Assembly (NCBI RefSeq): GCF_001888185.1
Contig: NZ_CP016364.1
Coordinates: 1,054,001 to 1,118,000 of the forward strand
Source: Phaeobacter porticola
GTDB lineage: Bacteria > Pseudomonadota > Alphaproteobacteria > Rhodobacterales > Rhodobacteraceae
Length of the DNA stretch: 64,000 bases
Direction of reading: 5' to 3'
Shown here in pieces: positions 36,102 to 55,523 of this stretch. The notes below the pieces were generated by a model, which saw nothing but the letters and a program-made list of their open reading frames with translations, was not told where the DNA came from and did no database searches. Positions within the stretch are counted from its first letter, which is position 1; each line of letters opens with the position of its first letter. The position numbers and the translations under genes were made by a program.

Positions 36102-36995
36102 CTACAGGCTACCGGTCGCACTATCCTGAAACATGGAGTAGAAATCTGCAGCCGTATTGTTGAAAACCGCTTGATGCATCTCGCGCGGAACAATGTCGCG
36201 AAAGGCTTGCATCAGTGTGGCATAGTCGGAATACAATTTATCCACCGGAAAATTTGATCCAAACATCACGCGATTGGGGCTGAATTGATCCAGGCAGGTT
36301 TCGACAATGGGGCGGAAGCTCTCCGAGACCCAGTCATGATCAAACATGCCCAGGCCAGACAGCTTGCATCGCACCTGCGGAAGATCTGACAGTGCAGCCA
36401 GTCCGCCTGCCCAACGCGCCAGACCGTCGCTTGACCGATCATGTGGAGAACCCGCATGGCAAAGGGCGACAGCGGTGTCAGGGGCCCGGGCCAGAAGCTC
36501 GGCGGTTTTTCCCATCAACTCCGGTATCAACTGAAGATCAAAGCTCAGCCCGCGTTCTCCAGCGTTTTGCAGGCCGGCCACAAAAGCAGGGTTGTCTAGC
36601 AGAGTGTTTGTTCCGGTCTCAGCGTCTTCGCCGAGCGCGCGACCAACAATCTGGCGCACGCCGACGACGCTGGGCAGTTCCTGAAATGCATCCAGCCGAG
36701 CATCCAGATCATCAGCAGTGAGTTCAACAAAAACCACTTGTTTCAACGGCCAGTTGGGATTGGCGTCAGCCACGGCCTGAACCCACCGCGCCTCAGCCAT
36801 TCCGTCTTCGGCGCCAACTTGAATATGGACCGATGCGGCAATTCCTTGGACCTCAGCCTCTGAGCGGAATTCATCGATCAGATAATTGCGTTGAATTGGT
36901 GTTGGGTCTCCAAAGAACCGTTCGACACCGCTTGCCATAAGCCATGGATAATGAACCGCAGTTAAATCCCAAAGGTGGTGGTGGGCATCAATCAT
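36102..36995 (-). CDS. Amidohydrolase family 2 protein (lactonase-like)
   Basis: A 297-residue TIM-barrel hydrolase of the Amidohydro_2 type. It has the N-terminal metal-site motif IDAHHHLWD, then VRQIVGRAL, CHAGSP, CKLSGLG and the C-terminal RVMFGSNFPVDKLY with the catalytic Asp. This matches the sugar-lactone/pyrone hydrolases such as L-fuconolactonase and 2-pyrone-4,6-dicarboxylate lactonase. It is second in a minus-strand operon, overlapping the SnoaL-like gene by 4 bp. A likely role is opening a lactone or cyclic ester made by the oxidoreductases of the divergent operon. Confidence 0.82.
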   Translation of the reverse strand: MIDAHHHLWDLTAVHYPWLMASGVERFFGDPTPIQRNYLIDEFRSEAEVQGIAASVHIQVGAEDGMAEARWVQAVADANPNWPLKQVVFVELTADDLDARLDAFQELPSVVGVRQIVGRALGEDAETGTNTLLDNPAFVAGLQNAGERGLSFDLQLIPELMGKTAELLARAPDTAVALCHAGSPHDRSSDGLARWAGGLAALSDLPQVRCKLSGLGMFDHDWVSESFRPIVETCLDQFSPNRVMFGSNFPVDKLYSDYATLMQAFRDIVPREMHQAVFNNTAADFYSMFQDSATGSL

Positions 36996-38029
36996 TTTTG
37001 CGCGCCTCTAGCTCCGGTTTCTTGTCCGGTGGATATCCCTGTGGTGCGTGCCAGAATATCAACGCCCTGCGTTTTCCAAAAATGCAGCAAGTCAATGAAA
37101 ACCCAATTTTCAGTTAGCTTGGCTCCGTCCCGCCGGTAAATGTCGATCACCCGCATTTCACCACGTTCTTCACTGGCGGGCATTCCCATGAAGCCGCCGG
37201 TATGAACAGCCGTGAAGTTTGGCCAGCCGAAAAATCCACCAAAATGCCCCTCGGCCAGTCTGCATATATGTCCGGTTGAAGACCTGTCCGAGAATGAGGC
37301 CCGAAACGGCCCGGAATGCTGTTTGGCATAGCGTTCGATTGTGTAGGTCGCGCCGATGCCTGCGGGTCCCCACCAGATCATGTCGTCATTCCAGGTTCGC
37401 GCCAGTTCTTCTTCCAGCGGCAACCCCAAAGCCCAGGTTCCCAGGTCGCTGATCATTGCATTGATCGCGTCCAACGTTTTACGCCCTTCTTCAGTGTTTT
37501 GAGGGTCAAACATCAGCCCATCGTGCGTCATTGGACCGGGTTGCACCAGATGCGCCGCTGTTTGCGGCGGAAACGGTTGCAGTCCTGCCTGCATCATCAG
37601 GTGAGGGATGTCGAAAAACATCGCGGTTTCGGTGATTTTGCCATTGTCCACCCGATTGAATTCGCAATAGCGCAGCATGGCGATTTTTCCGGTCGGGGGG
37701 ATGCCCAGCCAAGGTTGGTCGAACAGCCCCATCAGATGGCCCATGGAAACCACCCAAACACCACCCTGCTCGGCAATCGAATTCTGCCCGGCCATAAAGA
37801 CGTCAATACGTCGCTGAAGTGAGGTCAGCGCACCTCGCAGGGGCTGCCAAAACGATTCGCCGACTTCTTGCGCCGAGGTGATTTCGTTGAAGGGATGAAA
37901 CCCTCGCCACAGATATTCTGGCGATGTGAATGCTTGCAAAACCTCTGGAATATCCGTCTGGCATGCCTTGTCGAGGCGCGCATAGAAATCTCTAACTATT
38001 TGTTTTTCATTGCTAAAGTTGGTTTTCAT
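36992..38029 (-). CDS. Tandem SnoaL/NTF2-like protein (copy 1)
   Basis: A 345-residue protein made of two NTF2-fold halves. The first has LGIPPTGKIAMLRYCEFNRV and GKITETAMFFDIPHLMMQAGL. The second opens with MIWWGPAGIG and ends with VIDIYRRDGAKLTENWVFIDLLHFWKTQGVDI. Known SnoaL-type proteins are aldol cyclases, dehydratases, hydrolases or isomerases. The ATG at 38029 has a GGAAGG ribosome-binding site; the extra upstream codons would run through the operators. Four related proteins are encoded in the divergent operon, and the WxGPxGxG motif is shared with two of them. Confidence 0.8.
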   Translation of the reverse strand: MKTNFSNEKQIVRDFYARLDKACQTDIPEVLQAFTSPEYLWRGFHPFNEITSAQEVGESFWQPLRGALTSLQRRIDVFMAGQNSIAEQGGVWVVSMGHLMGLFDQPWLGIPPTGKIAMLRYCEFNRVDNGKITETAMFFDIPHLMMQAGLQPFPPQTAAHLVQPGPMTHDGLMFDPQNTEEGRKTLDAINAMISDLGTWALGLPLEEELARTWNDDMIWWGPAGIGATYTIERYAKQHSGPFRASFSDRSSTGHICRLAEGHFGGFFGWPNFTAVHTGGFMGMPASEERGEMRVIDIYRRDGAKLTENWVFIDLLHFWKTQGVDILARTTGISTGQETGARGAQK

Positions 38030-38054
38030 AATTGCGCCTTCCGGTTCTCTCATA

Positions 38055-38074
38055 TTTTGCATTCGCTTGCAAAA
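38055..38074. promoter_or_regulatory. LacI-type operator O1
   Basis: TTTTGCATTCGCTTGCAAAA, a near-palindrome centred on CG at 38064-38065, as LacI-family operators are. Its reverse complement is almost identical to O2 at 38111-38128. It lies 26 bp upstream of the minus-strand SnoaL-like start and upstream of the candidate -35 of the plus-strand promoter. Confidence 0.75.
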
Positions 38075-38079
38075 ATAAC

Positions 38080-38109
38080 TTGCCAAACAAATTACCCGCT
38101 GTCTATTGT
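38080..38109 (+). promoter_or_regulatory. Candidate promoter of the importer/catabolic operon
   Basis: TTGCCA at 38080-38085 (5 of 6 matches to a -35 box) and TATTGT at 38104-38109 (4 of 6 to a -10 box) with an 18-bp spacer. It sits exactly between the two operators, so a repressor on O2 would cover the start site. Confidence 0.45.
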
Positions 38110-38110
38110 C

Positions 38111-38128
38111 TTTGCAAACGAATGCAAA
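38111..38128. promoter_or_regulatory. LacI-type operator O2
   Basis: TTTGCAAACGAATGCAAA, centred on CG at 38119-38120, 55 bp from the O1 centre and in the opposite orientation. The TTGCA-N6-TGCAA form matches the central-CpG palindromes bound by LacI-family proteins. The probable regulator is encoded at 48757-49776. Confidence 0.78.
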
Positions 38129-38160
38129 AAATAGTGCCCGCATTCTATCAGGGGGAAGAT

Positions 38161-39210
38161 ATGGCCGAAATCCAGCTCCGCAATTTGTCCAAACGTTGGG
38201 GGTCGTTCGTGGGTGTTCACGAATTTGACCTCACCATTGCAGACAAGGAGTTCTTGGTTCTGCTCGGGCCGTCGGGGTGCGGCAAAACCACAACGATGCG
38301 GATGATTGCCGGGTTGGAGGACGCGACCGAAGGCGACATTCTGGTCGACGGAGTGCGGGTCAACGATTTGGAACCCAAAGACCGCGACGTCGCGATGGTT
38401 TTTCAAAGCTACGCGCTCTACCCGAATATGAACGTCTACGAAAATATCCGCTTTCCTTTGCGTGTGCGTGGCGTTGACCCGAAGACCCACGATGAAAAAG
38501 TGCGTCGGGCCAGTGCTATGGTTGAACTTGATGATTTCCTGCATCGCAAACCGGCCGAACTATCGGGCGGTCAACGTCAGCGCGTCGCACTTGCTCGCGC
38601 GGTTGTTCGGGAACCGAACGTGTTTTTGATGGACGAACCGCTATCCAATCTCGATGCCAAATTGCGGGTTTCGACCCGCGCGCAAATCAAGAACCTGTCA
38701 CACGAGTTGGCCGTAACGACGATCTACGTGACCCATGACCAGATTGAAGCCATGACGCTGGCGGATCGGGTCGTGATCATGAAGGCGGGTGTGGTGCAGC
38801 AAGTGGGAACCCCCGTTGATATTTATGACCATCCCGCGAATGCATTTGTTGCCAGCTTCATCGGCAATCCGGCGATGAACCTCATGGATGGGGTGATCAA
38901 AGGCGGTGCGTTTACCGCGAACAATGTCAAAATCGCCGGGCTTGATGCTGCAGATGGCGCTGTAACGCTGGGGTTCCGTGCCGAGGATGCCAGAGTCGTC
39001 GAAAGCGGCGGACAGATCAATGCGCCGATCTACACAATGGAACTCTTGGGGGATGCAACCATGGTCAGCGTGCGCATTGGTGGCGCTCTGGTCTCGGTGA
39101 AGGCTGACAAGAATTACAGGGCAGAAATCGACGACGTCGTGTCAATCGAAGTGCCCAAAGAGCAATGTCACCTGTTCGAAGCTGAAACAGGTGCTCGTAT
39201 CGGGGATTAA
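38161..39210 (+). CDS. CUT1-type sugar ABC transporter ATP-binding protein (UgpC/MalK family)
   Basis: The 349-residue ATPase has Walker A LLGPSGCGKTTTMRMIAG (about residues 37-54), signature ELSGGQRQRVALARA, Walker B VFLMDEPLSNLDAKLR and a switch His in VTHDQIEA. A C-terminal TOBE/MalK regulatory region follows. It energises uptake by the permeases at 40602-42513. The ATG at 38161 has a GGGGGAAG ribosome-binding site and is the first gene after the operators. Family membership points to a sugar, polyol or glycerophosphodiester-like substrate. Confidence 0.9.
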   Translation: MAEIQLRNLSKRWGSFVGVHEFDLTIADKEFLVLLGPSGCGKTTTMRMIAGLEDATEGDILVDGVRVNDLEPKDRDVAMVFQSYALYPNMNVYENIRFPLRVRGVDPKTHDEKVRRASAMVELDDFLHRKPAELSGGQRQRVALARAVVREPNVFLMDEPLSNLDAKLRVSTRAQIKNLSHELAVTTIYVTHDQIEAMTLADRVVIMKAGVVQQVGTPVDIYDHPANAFVASFIGNPAMNLMDGVIKGGAFTANNVKIAGLDAADGAVTLGFRAEDARVVESGGQINAPIYTMELLGDATMVSVRIGGALVSVKADKNYRAEIDDVVSIEVPKEQCHLFEAETGARIGD

Positions 39211-39288
39211 ACCCTGCAACTTACCGCTAGTGCGGGGCAACGGATGCAGGCTTCGAAGGTGCATCCAATCACAAGGGAGTGAGAAGAT

Positions 39289-40515
39289 ATGTTTCTTAGG
39301 CATGTAGCACTGGCCAGCAGTTTGGCCCTTATGGCTGGATCGGCATATGCCGATTGTCAGATTTCTGGCAATGTCAGTATTGTCGGAAACGAGTTTCCGG
39401 CCATTCACACAGTGGCCAAAAATGCGGCTGCCTGCACGGGTGGTGAGGTCAAGTCGAACCTGACCGCGGATCACCAGAAGATCAACGTCGACGGCATGAG
39501 CGGCAACCCGGCAGAGTATACCTCGGCGATCATCGCGAACTCCTCGATTGTGGCGCTGATGAACGAAGACCTCGTTCGCCCGTTGAATGATCTTGTTGCA
39601 GAATATGGTCAGGACATTCCCAAGAACCAGCTGATTTCCATCGACGGCAACATCATGGCTGTGGCCTTTATGGCAAACGCTCAGACGCTGGCCTATCGCA
39701 AGGACGTTCTGGCTGAAATTGGCGTTGATGTACCAAGCACCTACGAAGAAGTTCTGGAAGCAGCCGAGAAAATCCGCGCGGCAGGCATCAGCCAGTATCC
39801 TGTTGGTAGCGCTTACAAGGCAGGTTGGAACCTGGCTCAGGAATTCACCAACATGTACATTGGTCACGGCGGCGAATTTTATAAGCCGGGCACACCCGAA
39901 GTCGCGATCAACAATGCTCAGGGTGTGGCAGCTCTGAACATGATGAAAGCGCTGACCGAATACATGAACCCCGACTTCCTGACCCATGACAGCAACGCCA
40001 CCGGCGCCGAGATGGAAGCAGGCAACGTCATGATCATGAACATGTGGGGATCCCGCATGGGCGCCCTTATGGATGACGAAGGCGCAGAAGAGCAGGTCTA
40101 TTCCAATATCACAGTCGGCGGTCCGTTGACCGTTGCAGGTGGTTCGACACCGGCCTCGACCCTGTGGTGGGACGGCTGGACCGTGGCCAAGAACGTGTCG
40201 GATGAAGATGCGGTTGCCACCTTCCTTGCCATGAAGCACGGCACCAGCCCGGCAATCCTCGACGATGAAACCATGAGCCAGGCAGTCTGGATGATCGAGG
40301 GTTATACCCCTGCGCCGGTCAACGACGGTGTGTTCGCGGCAATTGCAGCTGGCACCACGTCCTACCCGATGCTGCCGTACCACGGTCTTTTGCACACTGC
40401 ACTGGGCGACAACTTGGCTGACTTCCTGCTTGGCAAAGAATCCGCAGAGCAAGCACTGGCAGATGCTGAGGCCGCATACACAGCTGCTGCGACTGAAAAA
40501 GGTTTCCTTCAGTAA
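39289..40515 (+). CDS. ABC transporter extracellular substrate-binding protein
   Basis: A 408-residue periplasmic protein of the family-1 (MalE/UgpB-like) type. It has a signal peptide with SAYA cleavage at about residue 21, an unusual N-terminal CQISGNVSIVG strand, then TSAIIANSSIVALMNEDLVRPL and AVAFMANAQTLAYRKDVLAEIG, the hinge crossing typical of sugar binders. Aromatic residues near NMWGSRMG and TLWWDGWTV could stack against a ring or polyol. A good AAGGGAGTGAG ribosome-binding site precedes the start. It should define the specificity of the importer. Confidence 0.88.
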   Translation: MFLRHVALASSLALMAGSAYADCQISGNVSIVGNEFPAIHTVAKNAAACTGGEVKSNLTADHQKINVDGMSGNPAEYTSAIIANSSIVALMNEDLVRPLNDLVAEYGQDIPKNQLISIDGNIMAVAFMANAQTLAYRKDVLAEIGVDVPSTYEEVLEAAEKIRAAGISQYPVGSAYKAGWNLAQEFTNMYIGHGGEFYKPGTPEVAINNAQGVAALNMMKALTEYMNPDFLTHDSNATGAEMEAGNVMIMNMWGSRMGALMDDEGAEEQVYSNITVGGPLTVAGGSTPASTLWWDGWTVAKNVSDEDAVATFLAMKHGTSPAILDDETMSQAVWMIEGYTPAPVNDGVFAAIAAGTTSYPMLPYHGLLHTALGDNLADFLLGKESAEQALADAEAAYTAAATEKGFLQ

Positions 40516-40601: not shown

Positions 40602-41624
40602 ATGAAACATAAGTCATTCTTTTGGTTTGTTCTTCCATCCGCCGTTGCGATGATGCTGTTCATCTTCTTTCCCATAATCTCGGTCATCGTGCAGTCGTTT
40701 CATGTCGAGCATGAACAGGTCATCCGCATCGTGGAAACCTGTGATCTGTTCGGGTGCAAGGAATCGACGGCCATTGATCAGGAGGCCACGGCGGCACTTC
40801 GTGCCGAAGCGCCCCTAGGTCAGTTTGCTGGACTAACCACCTATCTCGATCGCAACCATCTTGCGGTTAGTGAGGTTGGCGCCACTTGGAACAACTCCAA
40901 TGGTTTGCGGGATTTTGGTGGGCAGATGCTGAATTTGCCTTTCTACAAGGCCATTGGTTTTACGTTGACGTACACTTTTGTGGTGACACCGCTGGTGATT
41001 ATCCTTGGGTTTGTCATTGCAGTGGCCGTGAACGGCGCCGCAAAGATGTTGCGCGGACCGCTTATCTTTTTCTCTCTCTTGCCGATGATGATCACTCCGC
41101 TGGTCGGGGCATTGATTTTGTTTTGGATGGTGGATGCACGCGGGATCATCGGGGCGACGTTGCAATATCTGGCAGGAGATCCTGACCTTTCCGTAAAGGC
41201 GTCAACCCCGCTGATGTGGATCATGCTTATGGTTTATGGCGTTTGGCACTCGGCCCCTTTTGCCTTCATTGTCTATTACGCAGGTCTTCAATCCGTTAAC
41301 CAAGACACATTGGAAGCCGCGCGTGTCGACGGGGCCAACCGTTGGCTACAAATCCGACATGTTGTTATTCCCCATCTGGTGCCGCTGACAACTTTCATCG
41401 CTCTGATGCAGTTGATGGACAACTTCAGGGTTTTTGAACCGATCGTTAGCTTTGCTGCGAATGCGCACGCGACGTCGCTTAGTTGGTCGATCTTCAACGA
41501 CCTTGGTGGTGAAACGAGGCAATTGTCTTCGGCTGCTGCAACCTCGGTTCTTACAATCATCGGCGTGGCTATTCTTTTGTCGCCGGTACTGGTGCGCACG
41601 TGGCGCGAATTTGATCGGAAGTAG
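40602..41624 (+). CDS. ABC sugar transporter permease (MalF/UgpA-like)
   Basis: A 340-residue permease with an N-terminal membrane helix (residues 8-30) and a periplasmic stretch of about 80 residues containing two Cys (CDLFGCKEST) that could form a disulfide. The binding-protein-dependent permease core follows, with the EAA motif TLEAARVDGANRWLQIRHVVIPHL (about 230-253). The periplasmic Cys-containing insert is not usual for UgpA and may contact the binding protein. Confidence 0.88.
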   Translation: MKHKSFFWFVLPSAVAMMLFIFFPIISVIVQSFHVEHEQVIRIVETCDLFGCKESTAIDQEATAALRAEAPLGQFAGLTTYLDRNHLAVSEVGATWNNSNGLRDFGGQMLNLPFYKAIGFTLTYTFVVTPLVIILGFVIAVAVNGAAKMLRGPLIFFSLLPMMITPLVGALILFWMVDARGIIGATLQYLAGDPDLSVKASTPLMWIMLMVYGVWHSAPFAFIVYYAGLQSVNQDTLEAARVDGANRWLQIRHVVIPHLVPLTTFIALMQLMDNFRVFEPIVSFAANAHATSLSWSIFNDLGGETRQLSSAAATSVLTIIGVAILLSPVLVRTWREFDRK

Positions 41625-41631: not shown

Positions 41632-42513
41632 ATGTCCAGAAAGCTCAAGCGCCAGCCCCCTGCAATTACTCTGATGGTCTTCGTCGTCCTGGCGATCTGG
41701 ATGATCCTGGCCGCATTTCCGTTTCTTTGGACACTTTGGGGTTCCTTCAAAGTCGAGGGCGATTTCTTTTCCAAAGCAAATTGGGCCAACGCCCTCACTG
41801 GCAAGTTGACGGAAGTTGAAACAGGCGGTCAATTTGCGGGCGATGGGTATTTTGGAGCATGGGTCCAAGAAGAGTTTTGGCGCGCGGCTTTGAATTCCAT
41901 CATCGTGTGCTTCTTTGTCGTCACGATCTCGCTGACGCTGGGGACGTTGGGCGGCTATGCGCTGGCCCGTTCGACCTATCGCTATGCGTTCTGGTTCTTG
42001 CTGGCTGCGCTAATTTTCCGGGCCATGCCGCCGATCACCTTGGTGTCGGGTTACCTGCCGGTGTTCTTTCAGTGGAACCTTTGGGGGCATACCGCAACGA
42101 CGGTCATCGTTCTGGTCGCGATCAATCAGCCCTTCACCCTGTGGATGCTGCATTCGTTTTTCAAGAACATTCCCGCCGAGCTGGACGAAAGCGCGATGGT
42201 CGACGGTTGCACGCGGTTTCAGGCGTTCCGCAATGTCATCATCCCCGTGATGTGGCCGGGAGTTATCACCACGGGGCTGTTTTCTTTCTTGCTCGCCTAC
42301 AACGATTTTGCGGTTACTGCGATGCTACTGTCCAAGGAAAACCAAACCATGATCCCGAAGGTCGCCAGCTTCCTTGGGACCACGCAGACCAAGGGCAACG
42401 TGATGTTTGCCGTGTCGTCGGTTGTTTCCGTCACGGCCCCGCTATTCCTCATGGTCTTGTTCTTCCAGCGCCAGATCGTTGGTGGTCTGACCGCCGGTGC
42501 GGTCAAAGGGTGA
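41632..42513 (+). CDS. ABC sugar transporter permease (MalG/UgpE-like)
   Basis: A 293-residue permease with six predicted membrane helices and the EAA loop ELDESAMVDGCTRFQAFRNVIIPVM (about residues 184-208). It is 7 bp downstream of the MalF-like gene. Together with the ATPase and binding protein it completes a CUT1-type importer. The Cys in the EAA loop (DGCTR instead of DGAxR) is a small oddity. Confidence 0.88.
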   Translation: MSRKLKRQPPAITLMVFVVLAIWMILAAFPFLWTLWGSFKVEGDFFSKANWANALTGKLTEVETGGQFAGDGYFGAWVQEEFWRAALNSIIVCFFVVTISLTLGTLGGYALARSTYRYAFWFLLAALIFRAMPPITLVSGYLPVFFQWNLWGHTATTVIVLVAINQPFTLWMLHSFFKNIPAELDESAMVDGCTRFQAFRNVIIPVMWPGVITTGLFSFLLAYNDFAVTAMLLSKENQTMIPKVASFLGTTQTKGNVMFAVSSVVSVTAPLFLMVLFFQRQIVGGLTAGAVKG

Positions 42514-42555: not shown

Positions 42556-43578
42556 ATGAACGCACGCACAAACCGTCCGGCAATGGGAATTGCAACAGAG
42601 ACATCGCACAACAACAAGGTGCTTTATCGCAAACTGTTAGACAGTTTTGGTATGAACAAAGTGGAAGAGGCTGTCTCAAGGCTTTTTCATGAGTCTGCGA
42701 TAGTGAACGCCAGCCACCCGATCAACGAAGCGCAAGGTGGCCATGGCTACCACAAGGACGTCATCGCGCCGATCATGGCGGCGTTCAAGGGGTGCACGCG
42801 GCAAAACTACATTGTGCTGGGCGGTGAATATCTTGGCACTGAATGGGTGACCTCGACCGGATATTTCCATGGGCACTTTTGCGAGCCGCTTTTTGGCATC
42901 CCCGCCAGCGGTAAGCTAGCCTACCTGCGGTTTGGCGAATTCCATAGGATGGAAGAGGGCAAGATCGTTGAAAGCCATGTCTTCCTCGGCTTTGCAGAGA
43001 TGATCATTGCGCTTGGCCTTTGGCCATTGGACCCCAGCCGCGGATACGAGGGCCTTGTGCCCGGCCCGGCCACCCATGACGGGATCGTCCCTGGACCGTC
43101 TGACCTGGTTGCCTCGCGGGCCTCGGCTGATTTGGTTGAAGGCATGCTCAAAAAGCTCACAACCGAAGACGAGGCATGGCGGCCTGACTGGCATGACCGG
43201 ATGGTCTGGTATGGACCGGGCGGGCTTGGTTCCTATGCAACCGTTGAAGGGTTCGCCACGTTCCAACGCCCGTTTGAGAACACTTTTGACGGTTGGGGCG
43301 ATGGCCGCGAAGCGGGTATTTCGGGGGTCGGCGCCGACTGCAAATCCGGTGACGGGAACTACGCGTTCCTGAGCGGCTGGCCGATGATCACGGGCGTTCA
43401 GGTCAAACCGTTTCTTGGTCTCGAAGCAACGGGAAAGCGCGTGTTCATGCGCGATTGCGATTGGTGGCGCTGCGAGGACGGAAAGATCATTGAAAACTGG
43501 TGCATGCTGGATATCCCGCACGTGCTGCTGCAACTGGGCTTTGACGTTTTCGGTGAACTCGAAAGGGCTGCCGCATGA
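42556..43578 (+). CDS. Tandem SnoaL/NTF2-like protein (copy 2)
   Basis: A 340-residue protein with two NTF2-like halves. The first contains FGIPASGKLAYLRFGEFHRM and GKIVESHVFLGFAEMIIALGL. The second starts with MVWYGPGGLG and ends with DWWRCEDGKIIENWCMLDIPHVLLQLGFDVF. The repeated G-K-hydrophobic strand and the final ENW-LDIPH helix are shared with the other copies. The stop overlaps the GMC oxidoreductase start by 4 bp, so they are co-translated. It may act on the oxidoreductase product. Confidence 0.8.
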   Translation: MNARTNRPAMGIATETSHNNKVLYRKLLDSFGMNKVEEAVSRLFHESAIVNASHPINEAQGGHGYHKDVIAPIMAAFKGCTRQNYIVLGGEYLGTEWVTSTGYFHGHFCEPLFGIPASGKLAYLRFGEFHRMEEGKIVESHVFLGFAEMIIALGLWPLDPSRGYEGLVPGPATHDGIVPGPSDLVASRASADLVEGMLKKLTTEDEAWRPDWHDRMVWYGPGGLGSYATVEGFATFQRPFENTFDGWGDGREAGISGVGADCKSGDGNYAFLSGWPMITGVQVKPFLGLEATGKRVFMRDCDWWRCEDGKIIENWCMLDIPHVLLQLGFDVFGELERAAA

Positions 43579-47999: not shown

Positions 48000-48760
48000 C
48001 TTTGCCCAAAACTCCTTCATTTCGTCTGGATGGAAAACGCGCGCTGGTCGCGGGGGCAAGTTCGGGCATCGGCTTGGCTTGCGCAGTTGCGCTCGGTGAA
48101 GCAGGCGCAGAAGTTACACTTGCCGCGCGGCGTGTCGATTCTTTGAATGCGCTCGTAGATAAGATGAAGGCCGCGGGCATGTCGGCCAGCGCCTTGCCTC
48201 TGGACGTTTCCAATGTCGCTGCTACGCAAGCGGCTGTGGCATCGAACGGCCCGTTTGATATTCTTGTAAATTCGGCAGGCCTGGCCCGTCACAGCCCTGC
48301 AGCAGATACGACAGAAGCCGACTTTGATGTTGCGGCTGACCTTAATGTCAAAGGCGCATACTTCCTGACCCAAGCCGTCGCCAAGGGATTGTTGGCCGCC
48401 GGTAAACCTGGAAGCCTGATCAATATCTCATCGCAAATGGCGCATGTCGGCGGCATAGACCGCGCCGTTTATTGTGCCACGAAACACGCGGTCGAGGGCT
48501 TTACCAAATCCATGGCCATTGAATGGGGCAAGGCGGGCATCCGGATAAATACGATTTGCCCGACATTTATCCTGACCGATCTGACGCGACCAACCTTCGA
48601 AGACCCCGAGAAACGTGCCTGGATCGAAGACAAGATCAAACTTGGCCGCGCTGGCGAAGTCGAGGACATCATGGGCGCCGTCGTTTTTCTGGCGTCCCAA
48701 GCTTCCGCAATGGTGACCGGCACGTCGTTGTTGGTTGATGGTGGGTGGACCGCAGAATGA
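47996..48760 (+). CDS. SDR family oxidoreductase
   Basis: A 254-residue classical SDR with GASSGIGLACAVALGEAG (cofactor, about residues 20-37), DVSN, NSAGLARHS, the catalytic Ser in INISSQMAH, and YCATK (Tyr and Lys about 159-163). The C-terminal TGTSLLVDGGW is standard. The ARR after the second strand (LAARRVD) favours NADP(H). It overlaps neighbours on both sides by 4 bp. It probably oxidises a secondary alcohol in the pathway. Confidence 0.9.
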   Translation: MTLPKTPSFRLDGKRALVAGASSGIGLACAVALGEAGAEVTLAARRVDSLNALVDKMKAAGMSASALPLDVSNVAATQAAVASNGPFDILVNSAGLARHSPAADTTEADFDVAADLNVKGAYFLTQAVAKGLLAAGKPGSLINISSQMAHVGGIDRAVYCATKHAVEGFTKSMAIEWGKAGIRINTICPTFILTDLTRPTFEDPEKRAWIEDKIKLGRAGEVEDIMGAVVFLASQASAMVTGTSLLVDGGWTAE

Positions 48761-49776
48761 GCAAAAAGCATGTTACCTCTGCCGAAGTTGCCGAACGCGC
48801 TGGTGTCAGCCAGTCTGCGGTATCGCGTACCTTCACGCCCGGGGCATCGGCCTCCAAGAAAACTGCCGAGAAAGTGCGCAAAGCAGCGGCAGAGCTGGGA
48901 TATCGCCCCAATGTTCTGGCCCGTGCAATGGTATCGGGCAAAAGCCGCATTATCGGTCTGGTGGTGGCCTACCTTGAAAACCAATTCTATCCTGAAGCTC
49001 TCGAAAAACTGTCGAATGAACTGCAAAAACGCGGCTATCACCTGCTGATATTCCTGGCCGAGCAGACCGCTGGCCATATCGACATCGTTGTCGATGAAAT
49101 TCTGGATTATCAAGTGGATGGCATTATTGCGGCCTCGGTTGCGATGTCGTCCGATCTCTCTGAACGATGCCGCGCGGCCGGTGTGCCGATGGTTCTGTTT
49201 AACCGTAGTCAGGATGACCCGAACATGTCCGCCGTGACCTCGGACAATTATGCAGGCGGGCGCAAGGTCGCCGAGTTCCTGTTGGCCGCCGGGCATAGAA
49301 AGATTGGACATATTGCAGGTTGGCATGGCGCTTCGACCCAGCGCGACCGTGAGGCCGGGTTCATTTCGGCGCTTGCTGAAGCAGGCGTAGCCCTGCATTC
49401 ACGCGCCGAGGGAGATTTCTCGATGGAAAAGGCGACAGAGGCGACCCGTTCAATGTTCGCTTCAGATCCACCCGAGGCCATCTTTGTCGCCAATGACCAT
49501 ATGGCCCTTGCCGTGATGGACACGCTGCGGTTCGAACTGGGATTGAAGGTGCCCGAGGATGTATCGGTTGTCGGATATGATGATGTGCCGGCGGCCAGCT
49601 GGCCTGCCTACAATCTGACAACTGTGCGCCAGCCAGCTAATCGAATGGTTACAAACACCGTCGAAATTCTGCTCGACCAGATCGAAAACGAAATCAGCGA
49701 AACACGGCGTATCGCCATTGACGGGCCGCTGATCTTGCGCGGATCCGCCAAAATTCCAGAAGGATGGACCACATGA
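48757..49776 (+). CDS. LacI-family transcriptional regulator
   Basis: A 339-residue regulator. The N-terminal HTH is VTSAEVAERAGVSQSAVSRTF (about residues 5-25), followed by the hinge helix YRPNVLARAMVSGKS (about 49-63) and a periplasmic-binding-protein-like ligand domain with VPMVLFNRS, GHRKIGHIAGW and SVVGYDDVPAASWPAYNLTTVRQP. It is inside the operon, with 4-bp overlaps on both sides. The paired CG-centred palindromes in front of the operon (38055-38128) are its obvious candidate sites. Its ligand would be the pathway substrate or an intermediate. Confidence 0.92.
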   Translation: MSKKHVTSAEVAERAGVSQSAVSRTFTPGASASKKTAEKVRKAAAELGYRPNVLARAMVSGKSRIIGLVVAYLENQFYPEALEKLSNELQKRGYHLLIFLAEQTAGHIDIVVDEILDYQVDGIIAASVAMSSDLSERCRAAGVPMVLFNRSQDDPNMSAVTSDNYAGGRKVAEFLLAAGHRKIGHIAGWHGASTQRDREAGFISALAEAGVALHSRAEGDFSMEKATEATRSMFASDPPEAIFVANDHMALAVMDTLRFELGLKVPEDVSVVGYDDVPAASWPAYNLTTVRQPANRMVTNTVEILLDQIENEISETRRIAIDGPLILRGSAKIPEGWTT

Positions 49777-50747
49777 AGGGATTTGACCCGAAGTTCTCCG
49801 ATTTCCCAGATTATATTCTGAAAATCACCAAAGAGATTTGGGAAGATCGCGGCATCGCGACGCTGAACCATTACTACACCGAGAACATTCCAATGCGCTT
49901 TCCCGAAGGCGTGTCGATCGGCAATCAGGGCACGATGAATGGCACACTGGCGACCTTGGCCGAATTCCCTGACCGCGAATTGACGGGCGAGGATGTGATC
50001 TGGTCTGGCAATGAAGAGGAGGGCTTCTTGTCCTCGCATCGTCTGCTGACCATGGGCACGCATACCGGCGGCGGCTATTTTGGCCCGGCCACCGGCAAGC
50101 GCTTTGTCATCCGCGCGATCGCCGATTGTGCTGCGATCAACGACCAGATCAATGATGAATGGTTGATCCGGGACACTGCGGGGATTGTGCTGCAACTGGG
50201 AATGAAACCCAAGAAGTTCGCCCGCAACCTGATCGCGCGCGAAGGCGGGCCTGAAAACTGCGTCAAGCCGTTTTGCCCCGCAGTTGATGTTGAAGGCCCC
50301 TACAAGAACCGCGGCAACGACAACGAATGGGGGGCACGGATGGCCGACATTCTGACCCGGATGATGGACAAGGATTTCGCCGTGATCCGGTCGGAATATG
50401 ATCGCGCCGTGCAGGCCGAGCATCCGGCCTCGACCACCGCGCATTCATGGGCGGATACGGAAAAGCTCTGGATGGGGCTGCGCGCGTCTTTCCCGAATGC
50501 AGAGTTCAAGATTGAGCACCAGATCGGGCGCGAAGATCCCATGCTTTCGCCGCGTGCTGCGATCCGATGGAGCCTGCATGGCAAGCATGACGGATGGGGG
50601 ATGTTTGGCCAACCGACTAGCGCTGACGTCTACGTGATGGGCTTCACCCACGCAGAGTTTGGACCATACGGATTGCGCCGTGAATGGACACTGTTTGACC
50701 ATGTCTCGATCTGGAAGCAGATCCTGATGCAGACGGGGGCGTGCTAA
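49773..50747 (+). CDS. Divergent tandem SnoaL/NTF2-like protein (copy 5)
   Basis: A 324-residue protein with NTF2-like features in both halves. The first has TGKRFVIRAIADCAAINDQINDEWLIRDTAGIVLQLG; the second, after DFAVIRSEYD, has LSPRAAIRWSLHGKHDGWG and GPYGLRREWTLFDHVSIWKQIL. It lacks the WxGPxGxG hinge of the other tandem copies and is the most distant. The ATG at 49773 overlaps the LacI stop by 4 bp. The central strands suggest a ligand pocket different from the other four. Confidence 0.72.
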   Translation: MKGFDPKFSDFPDYILKITKEIWEDRGIATLNHYYTENIPMRFPEGVSIGNQGTMNGTLATLAEFPDRELTGEDVIWSGNEEEGFLSSHRLLTMGTHTGGGYFGPATGKRFVIRAIADCAAINDQINDEWLIRDTAGIVLQLGMKPKKFARNLIAREGGPENCVKPFCPAVDVEGPYKNRGNDNEWGARMADILTRMMDKDFAVIRSEYDRAVQAEHPASTTAHSWADTEKLWMGLRASFPNAEFKIEHQIGREDPMLSPRAAIRWSLHGKHDGWGMFGQPTSADVYVMGFTHAEFGPYGLRREWTLFDHVSIWKQILMQTGAC

Positions 50748-50877: not shown

Positions 50878-50897
50878 AAACCAAAGGAGATACGAAA

Positions 50898-51860
50898 ATG
50901 AGTAACATTGAAAACCACATCGTTCGCTACGGCGATCTGAAGCCCTGTAAAACTGCATTCATTGACGCCCATACGCCGGGGTCGGATCAGAAGGAAAACT
51001 TCACCATCATCGGTGGCGGTGTGTCTGAAAGCCCTGACCAGCACGTGCATATCGCTGACCAGATCGGGTTCAACATTGGCGCTGCTGGCCAACCACCGCG
51101 CTGTCGCAACTCGCTGCATGACCACAACACCGCCGAGATCTTCTTTGTCCTGAAGGGCAAGTGGCGGTTCTTCTGGGGCCGCTGGGGTGATGCTGGCGAG
51201 GTGACGCTGGAAGAGGGTGATATCTTCAACATCCCGACTGGCATATTTCGCGGGTTTGAAAACATCGGCACTGACTATGGAATGATCATGGCGGTCCTTG
51301 GCGGCGACGACGCTGGTGGCGGCGTGCATTGGGCCCCTCAGGTGATCAAGGATGCGGCGGACCACGGCCTCGTGCTGGGGGAAAACGGCGTGCTTTATGA
51401 CACGAAGAAGGGCGATGTACTTCCCCACAACGTCAATCCCATGCCGCTCATGTCAGATGAAGACCTGGACAAGCGGGCCGAACCGACCACCGCAGACGTT
51501 CTGCCAAATCACGTCGCGCGGTACTGGGACTTGATGGCGCTGTCTGACAATCAGCCTGCTACGGTCATCGGAGCCGATGCGATCCTGCGTGATCGTCCCG
51601 GGTTCGAGGTGGATTTCCTGTCGCGCAACTCGATCTCGCCTGATGTGCACACGCATGATCAGAACACCGTTCTGATGCCTGTACGCGGGCATTGGAAAAT
51701 CAGTATCCAAGGGGAAGAAAGCGTTCTGAACCCAGGCGACACCTGCCTGATCAAAGCAGGCGAGGCGCATTCTGTCACGCCGTCCATGACGGGCGAAGCC
51801 AGCCTTTATCGTATCCGCGCAACAGACGACCCAGCTGGCCTGACAGGTTCCGTACATTAA
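50898..51860 (+). CDS. Double-cupin (bicupin) protein
   Basis: A 320-residue protein with two cupin barrels. The first (about residues 60-145) has RNSLHDHNTAEIFFVLKGKWRFFWG and EEGDIFNIPTGIFRGFEN. The second (about 225-310) has SPDVHTHDQNTVLMPVRGHWKISIQG and NPGDTCLIKAGEAHSVTP. Each holds H-x-H/E-type metal-ligand patterns. This resembles gentisate-dioxygenase-like or isomerase bicupins. It may be a metal-dependent dioxygenase or sugar isomerase; ring cleavage is possible but not shown. It has the strongest ribosome-binding site of the operon. Confidence 0.8.
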   Translation: MSNIENHIVRYGDLKPCKTAFIDAHTPGSDQKENFTIIGGGVSESPDQHVHIADQIGFNIGAAGQPPRCRNSLHDHNTAEIFFVLKGKWRFFWGRWGDAGEVTLEEGDIFNIPTGIFRGFENIGTDYGMIMAVLGGDDAGGGVHWAPQVIKDAADHGLVLGENGVLYDTKKGDVLPHNVNPMPLMSDEDLDKRAEPTTADVLPNHVARYWDLMALSDNQPATVIGADAILRDRPGFEVDFLSRNSISPDVHTHDQNTVLMPVRGHWKISIQGEESVLNPGDTCLIKAGEAHSVTPSMTGEASLYRIRATDDPAGLTGSVH

Positions 51861-51878
51861 TCAAAGAGAGGGCCCACT

Positions 51879-53003
51879 ATGACCAAGATCAAAACAACTC
51901 ATGTGGGCTCTTTGCCGCGCACTCAGGACGTCGTGGATTTCATTTTCGCCCGCGAGAACGAAACGCCATTTGATCAGGCCGCGTTTGATGCGTGTATGAC
52001 TGCGTCCGTCTCGGACACGGTTCGCAAACAGGTTGAGGCGGGGATCGACATTGTCTCGGACGGTGAAACGTCCAAGATTTCCTATGCCACTTATGTGAAG
52101 GATCGCTACACCGGTTTTGGGGGTGACAGCCCACGCAATGCGCCCGCCGATCTGAAGATGTTCCCGGGCTTTTTGCAGCGGCTGGCGGATGACGGTGGCA
52201 CGCCGCAATATGCGCGCCCAATGTGTGTGGGTGAAGTGAAGTCCAAAGGGCAAGGCGAGCTTGAGAAAGACATCGCGAACCTCAAAGCTGCGATGGGCGA
52301 GCATGGTGCGGAACGTGGCTTCATGAACGCCGCCAGCCCCGGTGTGATTTCGCTCTTTCTGCAGAATGACTACTATAAATCGCGTGAGGCTTATCTGGCT
52401 GCGCTGGCCGATGCGATGAAGGCAGAATACGAAACCATCGTTGCCTCGGGGCTGGATCTTCAACTGGATTGCCCAGACCTTGCTCTGTCGCGTCATATGC
52501 TTTTCACCGATCTTTCAGATGACGAGTTCATCAAGGTGGCAAACATGCATGTCGAGGCATTGAACCACGCGCTGTCCGACGTGCCCGCCGACAAAGTCCG
52601 CATCCATATTTGTTGGGGTAACTACGAGGGTCCGCATTGCTGTGACATTCCAATGTCAAAGATGTTCGACACGCTGATGTCGACGAAATCGCGCTATGTG
52701 CTGTTTGAAACCTCGAACCCGCGTCACGGGCATGAATGGACAACCTTCCGCGATCGCAAGGCGGACATTCCTGACGACAAGGTCCTGGTGCCCGGCGTCG
52801 TCGACACCACCACCAACTTTGTGGAACACCCTGAACTGGTTGCTCAGCGCATCGAACGCTTCGCCGACATCGTTGGCGCAGACCGCGTGATTGCGGGGTC
52901 GGATTGTGGCTTTGGCACGTTTGCGGGCTTCGGTGCCGTCGACCCAGACATCGCCTATGCCAAGCTTAAGGCCCTGTCCGAAGGCGCGGCACTGGTCAAA
53001 TGA
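51879..53003 (+). CDS. MetE-like (cobalamin-independent methionine synthase C-terminal family) protein
   Basis: A 374-residue protein corresponding to the catalytic C-terminal barrel of MetE, without the N-terminal half. The zinc ligands are preserved: His and Cys in RIHICWGNYEGP (about 243 and 245), Glu in LFETSNPR (about 276) and Cys in AGSDCGFG (about 343). The start THVGSLPRT is typical. Such stand-alone proteins include methyltransferases and the epoxyalkane:coenzyme M transferase. In this operon it probably removes a methyl group or handles a thiol/thioether of the substrate, with homocysteine, glutathione or another thiol as acceptor. Confidence 0.85.
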   Translation: MTKIKTTHVGSLPRTQDVVDFIFARENETPFDQAAFDACMTASVSDTVRKQVEAGIDIVSDGETSKISYATYVKDRYTGFGGDSPRNAPADLKMFPGFLQRLADDGGTPQYARPMCVGEVKSKGQGELEKDIANLKAAMGEHGAERGFMNAASPGVISLFLQNDYYKSREAYLAALADAMKAEYETIVASGLDLQLDCPDLALSRHMLFTDLSDDEFIKVANMHVEALNHALSDVPADKVRIHICWGNYEGPHCCDIPMSKMFDTLMSTKSRYVLFETSNPRHGHEWTTFRDRKADIPDDKVLVPGVVDTTTNFVEHPELVAQRIERFADIVGADRVIAGSDCGFGTFAGFGAVDPDIAYAKLKALSEGAALVK

Positions 53004-53692
53004 CGCCACTTGTCCTGATCCCCGGCATGATGTGCGACGCGAGGCTGTTTGAGCCCCAGATCGCTGCATTTTCGGGACGTCGGGCTGTCATATGTGCTCC
53101 GATATCGGCGCACTCCAGCGTCGAGGAATTGGCCGCGAGCGTTTTGTCTTATGCACCGTCGCGGTTTGCGATGCTGGGCTTGTCTATGGGCGGCATCGTT
53201 GCGATGGAAATCTTGAGACAGGCCCCCAATCGGGTTGAGCGTATCGCCCTTCTCGACACCAATCCCTTGGCCGAACAAGAGGCGGTAAGAGCCCGTCGAC
53301 TTCCCCAGATGATGGCCGTTCGAGAGGGCAGGCTGTCTTCGGTCATGCGCGACGAAATGAAACCCAACTATCTGAGCGACGTCCCGCGCAAAGTTGCGAT
53401 CCTCGATCTTTGCATGGATATGGCGCTTGGTCTTGGGCCGCATGTCTTTCTGAACCAATCGCGCGCCCTGATGGACCGCCCCAATCAATCCGAGACATTG
53501 CGAAACGCCGATCTCCCCGCATTAGTTCTATGCGGGCGAGAAGATACGCTCTGCCCGGTGTCTCGTCACGAACTGATGGCCGAGTTGATCCAGGATGCGC
53601 GACTCGAAATCATCGAGGGTGCGGGGCATCTGCCGACTTTAGAACAACCGGACAAAACCAATGCAGCGCTTGCCCGCTGGCTGGAGGATTAA
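53000..53692 (+). CDS. Alpha/beta hydrolase
   Basis: A 230-residue hydrolase. The fold starts with LVLIPGMMCDARLF, has the nucleophile elbow MLGLSMGGIVAMEI (Ser about residue 61), an acid in LCGREDTLCP and the catalytic His in IEGAGHLPTLEQP. The lid between them is short. The start overlaps the MetE-like stop by 4 bp. It could hydrolyse an ester or lactone or cleave a C-C bond of a diketone, which would fit between the oxidation and aldolase steps. Confidence 0.85.
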   Translation: MTPLVLIPGMMCDARLFEPQIAAFSGRRAVICAPISAHSSVEELAASVLSYAPSRFAMLGLSMGGIVAMEILRQAPNRVERIALLDTNPLAEQEAVRARRLPQMMAVREGRLSSVMRDEMKPNYLSDVPRKVAILDLCMDMALGLGPHVFLNQSRALMDRPNQSETLRNADLPALVLCGREDTLCPVSRHELMAELIQDARLEIIEGAGHLPTLEQPDKTNAALARWLED

Positions 53693-54388
53693 ATGGACGA
53701 CACGTTTCTGACCCTGCTGAAGAAGGTCGACACGCCGACCGTCTGTAACGCCATCGAAGTGGCGCAAGGCAAACGCGGGTTCAACGCTTTCACGCGTGGC
53801 ACGATGCTGGCCTCACATCCCGATGCGCCCGCCATGGTCGGGTACGCACGCACTGCAAAGATCGCAGCTCTGGCGCCACCAGAAGAACCACCGGAAGCCA
53901 TCAAAGCCCGCCGTATGGATTACTATCGTCATATGGCCGAGGGACCGCGCCCGGCCATCACGGTTGTCGAAGACATCGATTTCCCAAATTGCATCGGCGC
54001 ATATTGGGGCGAGATCAACACCACGGTTCACAAAGGCTTTGGCCTCTCTGGAGCATTGACCAACGGCGTGATGCGCGATCTGGGGGATCTTCCGGATGGC
54101 TTTCCCGTTGTGGCGGGATCAATCGGGCCGAGCCACGGGTTTGTGCATGTAAAAGAAGTCGGCACGACGGTCACTGTCTTTGGGATGCAGGTTGCCGACG
54201 GTGATCTGATCCATGCGGACCGGCACGGCGCTTTGGTTATTCCGCCCGATGTTCTTTCAATCCTGGAAGCGGCAATTCACAAGCTGTTGGACACCGAAAA
54301 GCTGGTCCTTGATCCGGCCCGCCAAGATGGCTTTGATTTCGATGCGTTCGAGGCCGCATGGACGGCCTTTGAAAACGCTCGCACCTGA
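53693..54388 (+). CDS. RraA-family aldolase-like protein
   Basis: A 231-residue protein of the RraA/HMG-CHA aldolase family. It has the family's phosphate/carboxylate loop region GALTNGVMRDLGDLP (Arg-Asp, about residues 121-135) and the C-terminal GDLIHADRHGALVIP. True aldolases of this group split 4-hydroxy-4-methyl-2-oxoglutarate and related acids to pyruvate using Mg2+. It starts directly after the hydrolase stop (TAAATG). It is a good candidate for the step that releases central metabolites. Confidence 0.82.
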   Translation: MDDTFLTLLKKVDTPTVCNAIEVAQGKRGFNAFTRGTMLASHPDAPAMVGYARTAKIAALAPPEEPPEAIKARRMDYYRHMAEGPRPAITVVEDIDFPNCIGAYWGEINTTVHKGFGLSGALTNGVMRDLGDLPDGFPVVAGSIGPSHGFVHVKEVGTTVTVFGMQVADGDLIHADRHGALVIPPDVLSILEAAIHKLLDTEKLVLDPARQDGFDFDAFEAAWTAFENART

Positions 54389-54414
54389 CATTAGAACGCT
54401 AAGGAAAATCTGAT

Positions 54415-55523
54415 ATGCGTGGTTCAAACTTCATCAATGGGTCGTGGTCAGTCGACAAAGCCGGGGCATGTCATTCGGTGATCAATCCCGCCACCGGTGA
54501 GGAATTGGCAAAGGTGGCATAGGCCACCCCAGAACAGGTTGAAAGCGCCATTGGCGCTGCTTCAACCGCATTTCACACCTGGAGCCTTTCTTCGAAACAA
54601 GAGCGGATCGACTTACTTGATGCAATTGTTGCTGGATTGACGGCGCGACAGGAAGAGCTTGGTGAAACAATCCCAAAAGGAAATGGGGTTTCCGATAGAT
54701 GCAGCGGTCTCGCAACAGGCAGGTGGCGGGATCGGTGAGCTTCGCACCATGTCTGAGGCTTTTGCAAAGATGGATTTGCAATATGCTTTTACAGCCGAGG
54801 ATTCCAGCCAGCAAATCTCGCTTGAACCGGTCGGGGTTGCCGCTCTGATTCCCCCATGGAACTGGCCCCTTGCGCAGGTCACGTTGAAACTGGGGGCAGC
54901 ATTGGCTGCAGGCTGCACCTGTGTTCTGAAACCGTCCGAGATGTCGCCATTGGTTGCGATCCTGCTGGCCGATGTAAGGGACGATATTGGCGCCCCCGCC
55001 GGGGTGTTCAATCTCGTACAGGGTGATGGCGCGACAGTTGGGGCACAACTCACCGCCCATTCAAAAGTCGACATGGTTTCGATCACGGGATCAACGCGTG
55101 CGGGGCGGGCGATTTCGATTTCCGCGGCCCAAACGATCAAACGGGTCGCCCTTGAGCTTGGAGGCAAATCGCCGAGCATTGTTTTTGCTGACGCCGATTT
55201 GGACAAGGCCATTCGTGAAACGGTCGGAGCCTGTTTCCACAACACGGGCCAGAACTGTAACGCGCCCACAAGGTTGTTGGTCCAAAGACCCGTCTATCAA
55301 GACGTCCTGAATCGTATCAAAGAATTCGCACCCTCGATCCGCGTTGACATGCCGCAAGCACGTGGCGATCATCTGGGGCCTTTAATCTCCCAAACCCAGA
55401 TGGAACGGGTGCAGGCATATATTGAAGTCGCGAGGGAGGAAGCAATCGGGAAATGGACGCGAAGGTGGCAAATACGGCATCGAAGACTTCCTTGAAGCCA
55501 AGGCCATCGCCGGGTGGCCCTGA
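54415..55523 (+). pseudogene. Aldehyde dehydrogenase, inactivated
   Basis: The gene begins normally with an AAGGAAA ribosome-binding site and encodes FINGSWSVDKAGACHSVINP, then has an in-frame TAG at 54520-54522 (codon 36). The same frame continues as ATPEQVESAIGAASTAFHTW to about 54670. There a frameshift moves reading to the frame with QKEMGFPIDAA, VAALIPPWNWPLAQV, FNLVQGDGATVG, LELGGKSPSIVFADADLD and the catalytic-Cys motif GQNCNAPTRLL. After AYIEVAREEAIGK about 130 residues are missing, but the typical ALDH end KYGIEDFLEAKAIAGWP survives, stopping at 55523. So it has a nonsense mutation, a frameshift and an internal deletion. Confidence 0.9.

Follow-up and report, generated by a model that had tools for sequence, protein, structure and literature searches.

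Results

Gene content and layout of the locus

The stretch of DNA analyzed here, called the window, covers 64,000 nucleotides of Phaeobacter porticola (contig NZ_CP016364.1, positions 1,054,001 to 1,118,000) and carries an apparently catabolic gene unit built around a HisD-type dehydrogenase, five SnoaL/NTF2-like proteins, an importer and a LacI-family regulator. By coordinates and Pfam, the unit consists of 18 intact genes at 36102-54388. Two of these, encoding an amidohydrolase and the SnoaL protein SnoA, run leftward, and sixteen run rightward in the order given below. Protein families were assigned by Pfam and NCBIfam profiles.

36102..36995, minus strand: Amidohydrolase_2 protein, fuconolactonase-like (PF04909, 1.6e-29; PDB relative 4dlf)
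36992..38029, minus strand: SnoA, two-domain SnoaL/NTF2-like protein (PF07366, two stretches)
38056..38073: putative LacI-type operator palindrome 1, TTTGCATTCGCTTGCAAA; the motif recurs in relatives
38111..38128: putative LacI-type operator palindrome 2, TTTGCAAACGAATGCAAA, 55 bp from palindrome 1
38161..39210, plus strand: CUT1 ATP-binding cassette (ABC) importer ATPase, UgpC/MalK-like (NCBIfam PRK11650, 446.4 bits, cut-off 432)
39289..40515, plus strand: CUT1 solute-binding protein (PF01547, 6.5e-22; PDB relatives weak, best E 1.2e-9)
40602..41624, plus strand: CUT1 permease 1 (PF00528)
41632..42513, plus strand: CUT1 permease 2 (PF00528)
42556..43578, plus strand: SnoB, two-domain SnoaL protein, optional (PF07366)
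43575..45095, plus strand: GMC oxidoreductase, optional (PF00732, PF05199)
45137..45619, plus strand: SnoC, single-domain SnoaL protein (PF07366, 2.1e-19)
45634..46944, plus strand: HisD-type dehydrogenase, probable third family (PDB search, alignment, tree)
46944..47999, plus strand: SnoD, two-domain SnoaL protein (PF07366, 3e-22, two stretches)
47996..48760, plus strand: short-chain dehydrogenase/reductase (SDR), gluconate/2-keto-3-deoxygluconate (KDG) dehydrogenase-like (PF13561; PDB 4hp8, 4z9y)
48757..49776, plus strand: LacI-family regulator (PF00356, PF13377)
49764..50747, plus strand: SnoE, two-domain SnoaL protein (PF07366, two stretches)
50898..51860, plus strand: bicupin (Pfam; alignment A4, 29 rows)
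51879..53003, plus strand: MetE-like (Meth_synt_2) zinc protein, accessory (PF01717; HxC, E and C ligand motifs)
53000..53692, plus strand: alpha/beta hydrolase, PcaD-like (PF12697; NCBIfam matches below cut-offs)
53693..54388, plus strand: RraA-like pyruvate-type aldolase/decarboxylase, final gene of the unit (PF03737)

An earlier note, made from the letters of this DNA, had described 16 genes in two divergent operons, nearly all overlapping or within 50 bp of each other. The divergent and tight layout stands, as do the protein families that it named, including the five SnoaL/NTF2-like proteins. The gene count rises to 18, and while 12 of the 15 rightward junctions overlap or span less than 50 bp, the other three measure 78, 86 and 150 bp. 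The CUT1 importer is complete within one operon, with a binding protein, two permeases and one ATPase. The top NCBIfam match of the amidohydrolase is L-fucono-1,5-lactonase, but the score of 116.9 bits falls below the equivalog cut-off of 400, and the protein is likely a lactone hydrolase of some kind. In one related locus (L031), an SMP-30/gluconolactonase gene instead occupies the amidohydrolase end of the cluster, on the opposite strand.

Putative operators of the LacI-family regulator

Alignment A1 moved the start of SnoA from 38143 to 38029, and the ATPase gene starts at 38161. The resulting regulatory gap of about 130 bp contains the two 18-bp palindromes, both of which follow the LacI-type plan TTTGCA-N2-CG-N2-TGCAAA. 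The whole genome holds two further exact matches to this plan, identical to each other, distant from the cluster and different in their centre. These perfect palindromes, TTTGCAACCGGTTGCAAA, lie about 4.4 kb apart (G000:C1:2533893-2533910 and 2538315-2538332; locus L191) and probably mark another LacI-type regulon. When two mismatches were allowed, a genome scan returned 15 forward matches versus 10 in a backward control.

The shorter motif TTGCA-N2-CG-N2-TGCAA had one or more matches, at any position in the stretch, in 71 of the 95 other loci that carry a HisD-type gene, and in 53 of the 63 loci that hold both SnoA and the ATPase. Matches totaled 110, compared with 0, 0, 1, 0 and 0 in five mononucleotide shuffles, and 33 pairs in the 95 loci were spaced 54-56 bp apart. 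Moreover, most matches to a slightly looser motif lay in the interval that separates the first importer gene from the leftward SnoaL or amidohydrolase gene. The LacI gene and the conserved palindromes, as putative operators, support the earlier proposal of a LacI-regulated catabolic unit.

A probable third family of HisD-type enzymes

HisD-type enzymes convert R-CHOH-CH2OH, or its amino analogue, to R-CHOH-COOH, as is established for HpsN and HisD. The nearest solved relatives of the cluster protein are HpsN enzymes, dehydrogenases of dihydroxypropyl sulfonate (DHPS), which score 391 bits against at most 253 bits for histidinol dehydrogenases. This kinship to HpsN, its nearest characterized relative, went unrecognized in the earlier note. 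In excerpts of PMC11382572 and PMC11131964, HpsN of Cupriavidus and Ruegeria is described as performing four-electron alcohol-to-acid chemistry beside a hydroxyl. The cluster enzyme shares with HpsN the zinc positions, the catalytic Glu-His and the Asp352-Lys353 pair (GDKVIGTNH and SEH positions). The residue that distinguishes HpsN, however, is His126 of the GRYxH motif (excerpt of PMC11382572), and at that position the window protein has Met, as do 12 of 12 cluster proteins in an alignment; each of the 21 cluster rows of the tree has Met or Leu there, with Leu in three lake betaproteobacteria. Where HpsN has GRYxH, the cluster enzyme has [KR][FY]P[ML], and 36 of 37 proteins from the first set of loci match both this motif and GDKVIGTNH. 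The gene neighbors differ from those of HpsN as well.

In a tree of 40 sequences (7 HisD, 9 HpsN-type and 24 of a third group, 21 from clusters and 3 others), the third group branched with support of 88/82, and HisD separated at 100/100. Membership in HpsN was ruled out by Met or Leu in place of His126, and membership in HisD by the separate tree group and by the lack of the presumed histidine-biosynthesis motif (A[SN]Y; GDY). A third group is probable rather than certain. The catalytic Glu-His and Asp-Lys residues are kept in a protein that nevertheless groups separately, and therefore the cluster enzyme probably works as an alcohol-to-acid dehydrogenase in the manner of HpsN and HisD but belongs to neither. 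We note that P. porticola encodes a second HisD (G000:C1:3206977) that is 37% identical to the cluster protein, and that all three types are present in single genomes such as G149 and G150.

Co-conservation of the unit

Among 147 related genomes, P. porticola included, we counted listed matches at E thresholds of 1e-10 for SnoB relatives, 1e-150 for HisD-type and 1e-80 for MetE-like proteins. SnoB relatives occurred in 34 genomes, HisD-type matches in 49 (45 of the cluster type, at least 73% identical), and MetE-like matches in 41 (36 of the cluster type, at least 66%). All 36 genomes with cluster-type MetE-like proteins and all 34 with SnoB fall inside the 45 with a cluster-type HisD. The co-occurrence of MetE-like and HisD-type proteins had a Fisher p of 3e-26, uncorrected for kinship. 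Eleven of the 45 lacked a SnoB relative, and four of those (G071, G082, G089 and G104) have the MetE-like protein. In a phylum sample of 398 genomes, the HisD-type enzyme was found in 30, a two-domain SnoaL protein in 21 and both in 18 (p 1.6e-20, again uncorrected for kinship). Thus, the HisD-family, MetE-like and SnoaL genes, whose co-occurrence the earlier note had proposed to check, are co-conserved across genomes.

Gene order is conserved as well, in Ruegeria conchae, Marinovum algicola, Octadecabacter arcticus, Paracoccus alcaliphilus and two further Ruegeria records, and this recurrence indicates more than chance. A SnoD scan of named genomes gave at least 577 relatives, the best 80 of which were taken as loci. 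By title, these 80 are mostly Rhodobacteraceae/Roseobacteraceae, and they also include Kiloniella, Nitratireductor, Granulosicoccaceae, Thiotrichaceae, Oceanospirillaceae and lake Comamonadaceae. The first set of loci contains duplicates (L134/L135 on one contig, L048/L110 at the same locus, and L033/L063). Among its 96 loci with a HisD-type gene, the window included, SnoC was found in 79, the amidohydrolase in 33, SnoB in 17 and GMC in 7. SnoB and GMC, which the earlier note had counted as members of the set, are thus present in the window and optional elsewhere. The open reading frame caller was mechanical and may miss genes at contig ends or in overlapping frames, such that absence from a layout is not proof; for the 95 other loci, a tblastn recheck covered RraA, HpcH, MetE and others. 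Farther afield, a Halobellus limi plasmid (L026, 12968-19361) has five SnoaL genes and, after them, a MetE-like gene; an ABC importer adjoins the set, and a gene of the aminomethyltransferase family is fairly close.

A proposed catabolic core and separately placed modules

A second set of 52 mostly diverse stretches was chosen through HisD-type or MetE-like matches; 49 had a HisD-type gene and were counted, and three without one were dropped. Within seven genes of the HisD-type gene, an SDR of the window's family was found in 33 loci (28 occurrences directly adjoining it), LacI in 26, a cupin in 16, HpcH in 15, SnoaL in 14, the alpha/beta hydrolase in 13, the MetE-like gene in 8 and RraA in 5. 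Importers vary across loci and include CUT1, tripartite ATP-independent periplasmic (TRAP), major facilitator superfamily and BPD_transp_2-type ABC systems and a sodium symporter.

RraA and HpcH/HpaI are both families of pyruvate-type aldolases that act on 4-hydroxy-2-oxo acids and yield pyruvate. The cluster protein is only distantly related to characterized RraA-type aldolases of 4-carboxy-4-hydroxy-2-oxoadipate (CHA) and 4-hydroxy-4-methyl-2-oxoglutarate; the CHA aldolase 3noj (E 0.0033) was the only characterized RraA relative found in the PDB, and a PHROGs scan of RraA gave no match. An Arg-Asp pair between residues 96 and 145, which we take to be a marker of RraA-type aldolases, is present in 18 of 18 proteins. 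RraA and HpcH were found alternately and never together: 0 of the 20 aldolase-bearing loci in the second set had both (15 HpcH, 5 RraA), and the 63 first-set loci with an alpha/beta hydrolase comprised 48 with RraA only, 4 with HpcH only, none with both and 11 with neither, two of which (L039 and L122) stop within 0.8 kb. For L031 and L195, Pfam confirmed the HpcH assignment. Exclusivity had a p of 0.0023 in the first set. Replacement of RraA by HpcH is only suggestive, however, because the four first-set HpcH loci, three lake bacteria and one Ruegeria, represent about two independent events and because p was 0.31 in the second set.

The SnoaL genes appear to be peripheral. Locus L198 encodes, consecutively, DctP, DctQ, a DctM-like protein, HisD-type, SDR, LacI, cupin, MetE-like, alpha/beta hydrolase and RraA proteins with no SnoaL. 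The L198 genome (G104) also falls outside the 34 that have a SnoB relative. Conversely, 12 SnoaL loci lacked a nearby HisD-type gene, 11 of them with CUT1 genes and one (L117) with SnoaL alone. Eleven of the 12 genomes carry a HisD-type gene elsewhere, at least 76% identical, and the twelfth is a 1.8-Mb assembly. We conclude that the unit has two layers, a core (HisD-like, SDR, cupin, alpha/beta hydrolase and aldolase) and separately placed SnoaL/importer modules. The NTF2-fold proteins, which the earlier note had made an integral step of the pathway, are therefore not part of the core.

SnoaL, MetE-like and cupin proteins

Four of the five SnoaL proteins have two SnoaL stretches and SnoC has one. 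A small methyltransferase-family gene lies inside the cluster, between cupin and MetE-like, in 14 loci (L035, L115 and 12 others; seen by Pfam in L035 only). A gene of the SBP56 family (selenium-binding, methanethiol oxidase) adjoins SnoaL genes in L024, L033 and L063, on Marinovum algicola and Phaeobacter piscinae plasmids; L033 and L063 are apparently the same plasmid stretch, leaving two independent cases.

By motif, the zinc ligands of the MetE-like protein (His, Cys, Glu, Cys) are intact: HxCxG and SDCGF occur in 26 of 27 orthologues of at least 60% identity, and the window protein has the Glu at about position 277. The same ligand set is named for core-MetE methionine synthases, which also have a Meth_synt_2 domain, in an excerpt of PMC12478193. 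Unlike those enzymes, the MetE-like gene sits in a catabolic operon, and from this context methionine synthesis is not a favored role. According to the same excerpt of PMC12478193, an mtgCDE mutant was a methionine auxotroph despite a core-MetE homologue in P. inhibens, which may or may not correspond to this gene.

The MetE-like gene is missing from 11 of 63 clusters with both cupin and alpha/beta hydrolase. Nine of these clusters come from whole genomes, of which eight have no relative at E 1e-10 and one has a MetE-like gene on a different contig; the remaining two clusters, from plasmid records, lack it as well. Because most of the genomes behind these clusters lack any relative, the MetE-like protein is, as judged from gene content, accessory rather than obligatory, and demethylation by it is not the fixed pathway step that the earlier note had supposed. 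Plasmids of Sphingobium/Novosphingobium (L077, L078) carry a MetE-like gene 51-53% identical to that of the window together with NTF2-like and IclR genes, and aminomethyltransferase/glycine-cleavage-T family, methylenetetrahydrofolate reductase and other one-carbon genes lie close by. This neighborhood, which we presume to serve LigM-type O-demethylation, and the intact zinc ligands would fit methyl transfer by the MetE-like protein. Sarcosine oxidase or GcvT-type genes lie within three genes in 8 loci, a weak hint for which the background rate was not computed. In the bicupin, domain 1 keeps H74, H76 and E80, which we take to be metal-ligand positions.

Flanks and origin of the window copy

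An aldehyde dehydrogenase at 54659-55495, 270 bp beyond RraA at the right edge of the cluster, is a decayed pseudogene. The remnant spans 54402-55495, with its N-terminal part shifted to a different frame and interrupted by a stop. A relative at least 50% identical is absent from all 95 other HisD-type loci; weaker relatives (28-41%) occur near SnoaL or HisD-type genes in L026, L050, L064, L117, L133, L146 and L243. The earlier note was right to call this gene broken, but decay and the lack of close relatives in the other loci rule it out as a member of the conserved unit.

The window copy was compared with five same-genus loci and with the seven best SnoD matches (HTCC2150, IMCC1909, Planktomarina and others), the seven having been chosen for similarity. 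For each of the 16 genes that could be compared, the top match among the seven was closer than the same-genus loci, with a margin of a single point for RraA; the five had no counterpart of SnoB or GMC. Permease 2 was 91-95% identical in six of the seven versus 71-75% within the genus, and SnoD was 84-85% identical in the closest four versus 61-62%. The G+C content of the cluster is 56.2%, compared with 60.0% and 59.6% on the flanks. Closer kinship to loci of other lineages and the lower G+C content point to horizontal gain, and horizontal acquisition would be the simplest reading. A small pair of adjacent genes (34960-35689) just to the left of the cluster, close to where the island presumably ends, resembles by eye a toxin-antitoxin system (RelE/HigB-like and helix-turn-helix). 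A gene that looks OmpA-like by eye (28245-30326, plus strand) contains an 18-bp unit repeated 18 times with 98% matches at 28688-29012, coding for AADAQA-type repeats.

Discussion

Beyond the gene content, co-conservation, modularity, operator motifs and residue signatures shown here, we infer from enzyme families and neighborhood a series of reactions and their order. The CUT1 importer would bring in a small polyhydroxylated compound, which the SnoaL proteins, without cofactors, would turn, together with related derivatives, into one shared substrate for the core. Where a methyl group is present, the MetE-like zinc enzyme might remove it, and the lactonase, cupin and alpha/beta hydrolase might open up the molecule or trim it. 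Next, the HisD-type enzyme would oxidize a terminal CH2OH beside a hydroxyl to the carboxylate in a four-electron, NAD-dependent and zinc-dependent reaction, the SDR would oxidize the 2-hydroxy acid so formed to a 2-oxo acid, and RraA or HpcH would cleave a 4-hydroxy-2-oxo acid to give pyruvate plus an aldehyde or oxo acid. Aldol cleavage to pyruvate-like products, which the earlier note had foreseen, is a likely end, given RraA or HpcH/HpaI in its stead. The order of HisD-type enzyme, SDR and aldolase would explain why the three families travel together without the other genes. Moreover, HisD-type genomes without SnoB and SnoaL genomes with a HisD-type gene elsewhere form an asymmetry that fits two layers. 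We give about an even chance to the overall reading of a LacI-controlled, two-layer catabolic unit that feeds a small polyhydroxylated compound, by terminal-diol oxidation and aldol cleavage, to pyruvate.

Several observations weigh against that reading. Of the 49 loci in the second set, 16 lack an SDR of this family and 29 lack a nearby RraA or HpcH, and thus the three-enzyme order may hold for only part of the family. Those loci were hand-picked for diversity rather than drawn at random, and the choice of first-set loci by SnoaL or MetE similarity biases their gene counts upward. The exclusivity of the two aldolases likewise depends on few independent events. Tree support for a third HisD family is moderate and comes with a long-branch warning. 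The bicupin lacks the usual fourth metal ligand, at what is presumably that position having Arg118. Finally, three of the 21 phylum-sample genomes with a two-domain SnoaL protein (G228, G259 and G533) have no HisD-type enzyme, and SnoaL proteins can therefore serve without this core.

An oxidative, nonphosphorylative sugar pathway is possible but doubtful. Here, the SDR would act at C1 of a sugar or O-methyl sugar, the amidohydrolase would open the lactone, a SnoaL protein would be the dehydratase, the HisD-type enzyme would make the other end a carboxylate, and RraA or HpcH would cleave a 2-keto-3-deoxy acid. The SDR is indeed nearest to KDG and gluconate dehydrogenases, the amidohydrolase is nearest to fuconolactonase and is matched in position by the SMP-30 gene on the opposite strand of L031, the CUT1 and BPD_transp_2-type importers would suit sugars, and 4 of the 49 second-set loci have MR_MLE proteins close to the HisD-type gene. 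The logic of SDR, lactonase and pyruvate aldolase is also that of the L-fucose and L-rhamnose oxidative pathways. Pfam, however, finds no known sugar-acid dehydratase among the cluster genes, and the HisD-type, MetE-like and SnoaL proteins are foreign to those pathways. Moreover, the amidohydrolase is present in just 33 of the 96 HisD-type loci, and the SDR still adjoins the HisD-type gene in layouts that show no amidohydrolase.

Breakdown of mycosporine-like amino acids or gadusol, the UV sunscreens of algae and cyanobacteria, seems quite unlikely. By our own reasoning, SnoaL proteins would strip the amino-acid arms, the MetE-like protein would remove the ring methoxyl, the HisD-type enzyme would oxidize the C5 hydroxymethyl beside a tertiary alcohol, the cupin would open the reductone ring, and RraA would cleave CHA to pyruvate and oxaloacetate. 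CHA is the substrate of the one characterized RraA relative found in the PDB, 3noj, and hosts of the unit include marine and saltern organisms. Bacterial conversion of shinorine and porphyra-334 is reported in an excerpt of PMC3083659, but we found no gene set assigned to this breakdown in the open-licence PubMed Central (PMC) literature. The methoxyl would always have to go, yet the MetE-like protein is dispensable; L198 has a TRAP importer; and lake and soil hosts occur too.

Catabolism of a DHPS-like sulfonate, with the HisD-type enzyme acting as HpsN on dihydroxypropyl sulfonate or a relative, is very unlikely. HpsN is the nearest solved relative, its sulfonate-binding Lys is kept, and the roseobacter hps set, in an excerpt of PMC11131964, combines a HisD-type enzyme with an SDR as the cluster does. 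The signature His126, however, is replaced throughout the cluster proteins, and several of the same genomes carry a separate HpsN-type gene with GRYxH. Moreover, Pfam shows no sulfonate lyase among the 18 genes, which add to the hps plan an aldolase, cupin, alpha/beta hydrolase, MetE-like and SnoaL proteins. The TRAP importer of L198 resembles that of DHPS loci. The SnoaL polyketide cyclase annotation might suggest secondary-metabolite biosynthesis, but this is hardly credible, as the proteins are distant from solved cyclases (best E 2.2e-7) and the 18 genes include, by Pfam, no polyketide synthase or carrier protein, with an importer, LacI and an aldolase instead.

The preferred reading, terminal-diol oxidation and aldol cleavage to pyruvate, is new at the level of the pathway and of the third HisD-type family; the component enzyme families are already known. 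We found no description of the cluster in the open-licence PMC literature on the cluster itself, HisD-like families, mycosporine-like amino acid catabolism or NTF2-type catabolic enzymes, which agrees with the earlier view that the set is undescribed. In these genomes, some of the genes that carry the hisD annotation belong to a third family, apparently catabolic, and this affects automatic annotation. Several two-domain SnoaL proteins gain a testable catabolic setting. Ultimately, the set is found in many Roseobacteraceae, Planktomarina-type plankton included, in gammaproteobacteria and in lake betaproteobacteria, with a haloarchaeal plasmid relative that has SnoaL and MetE-like genes, and so wide an occurrence points to a common carbon source without an assigned pathway.

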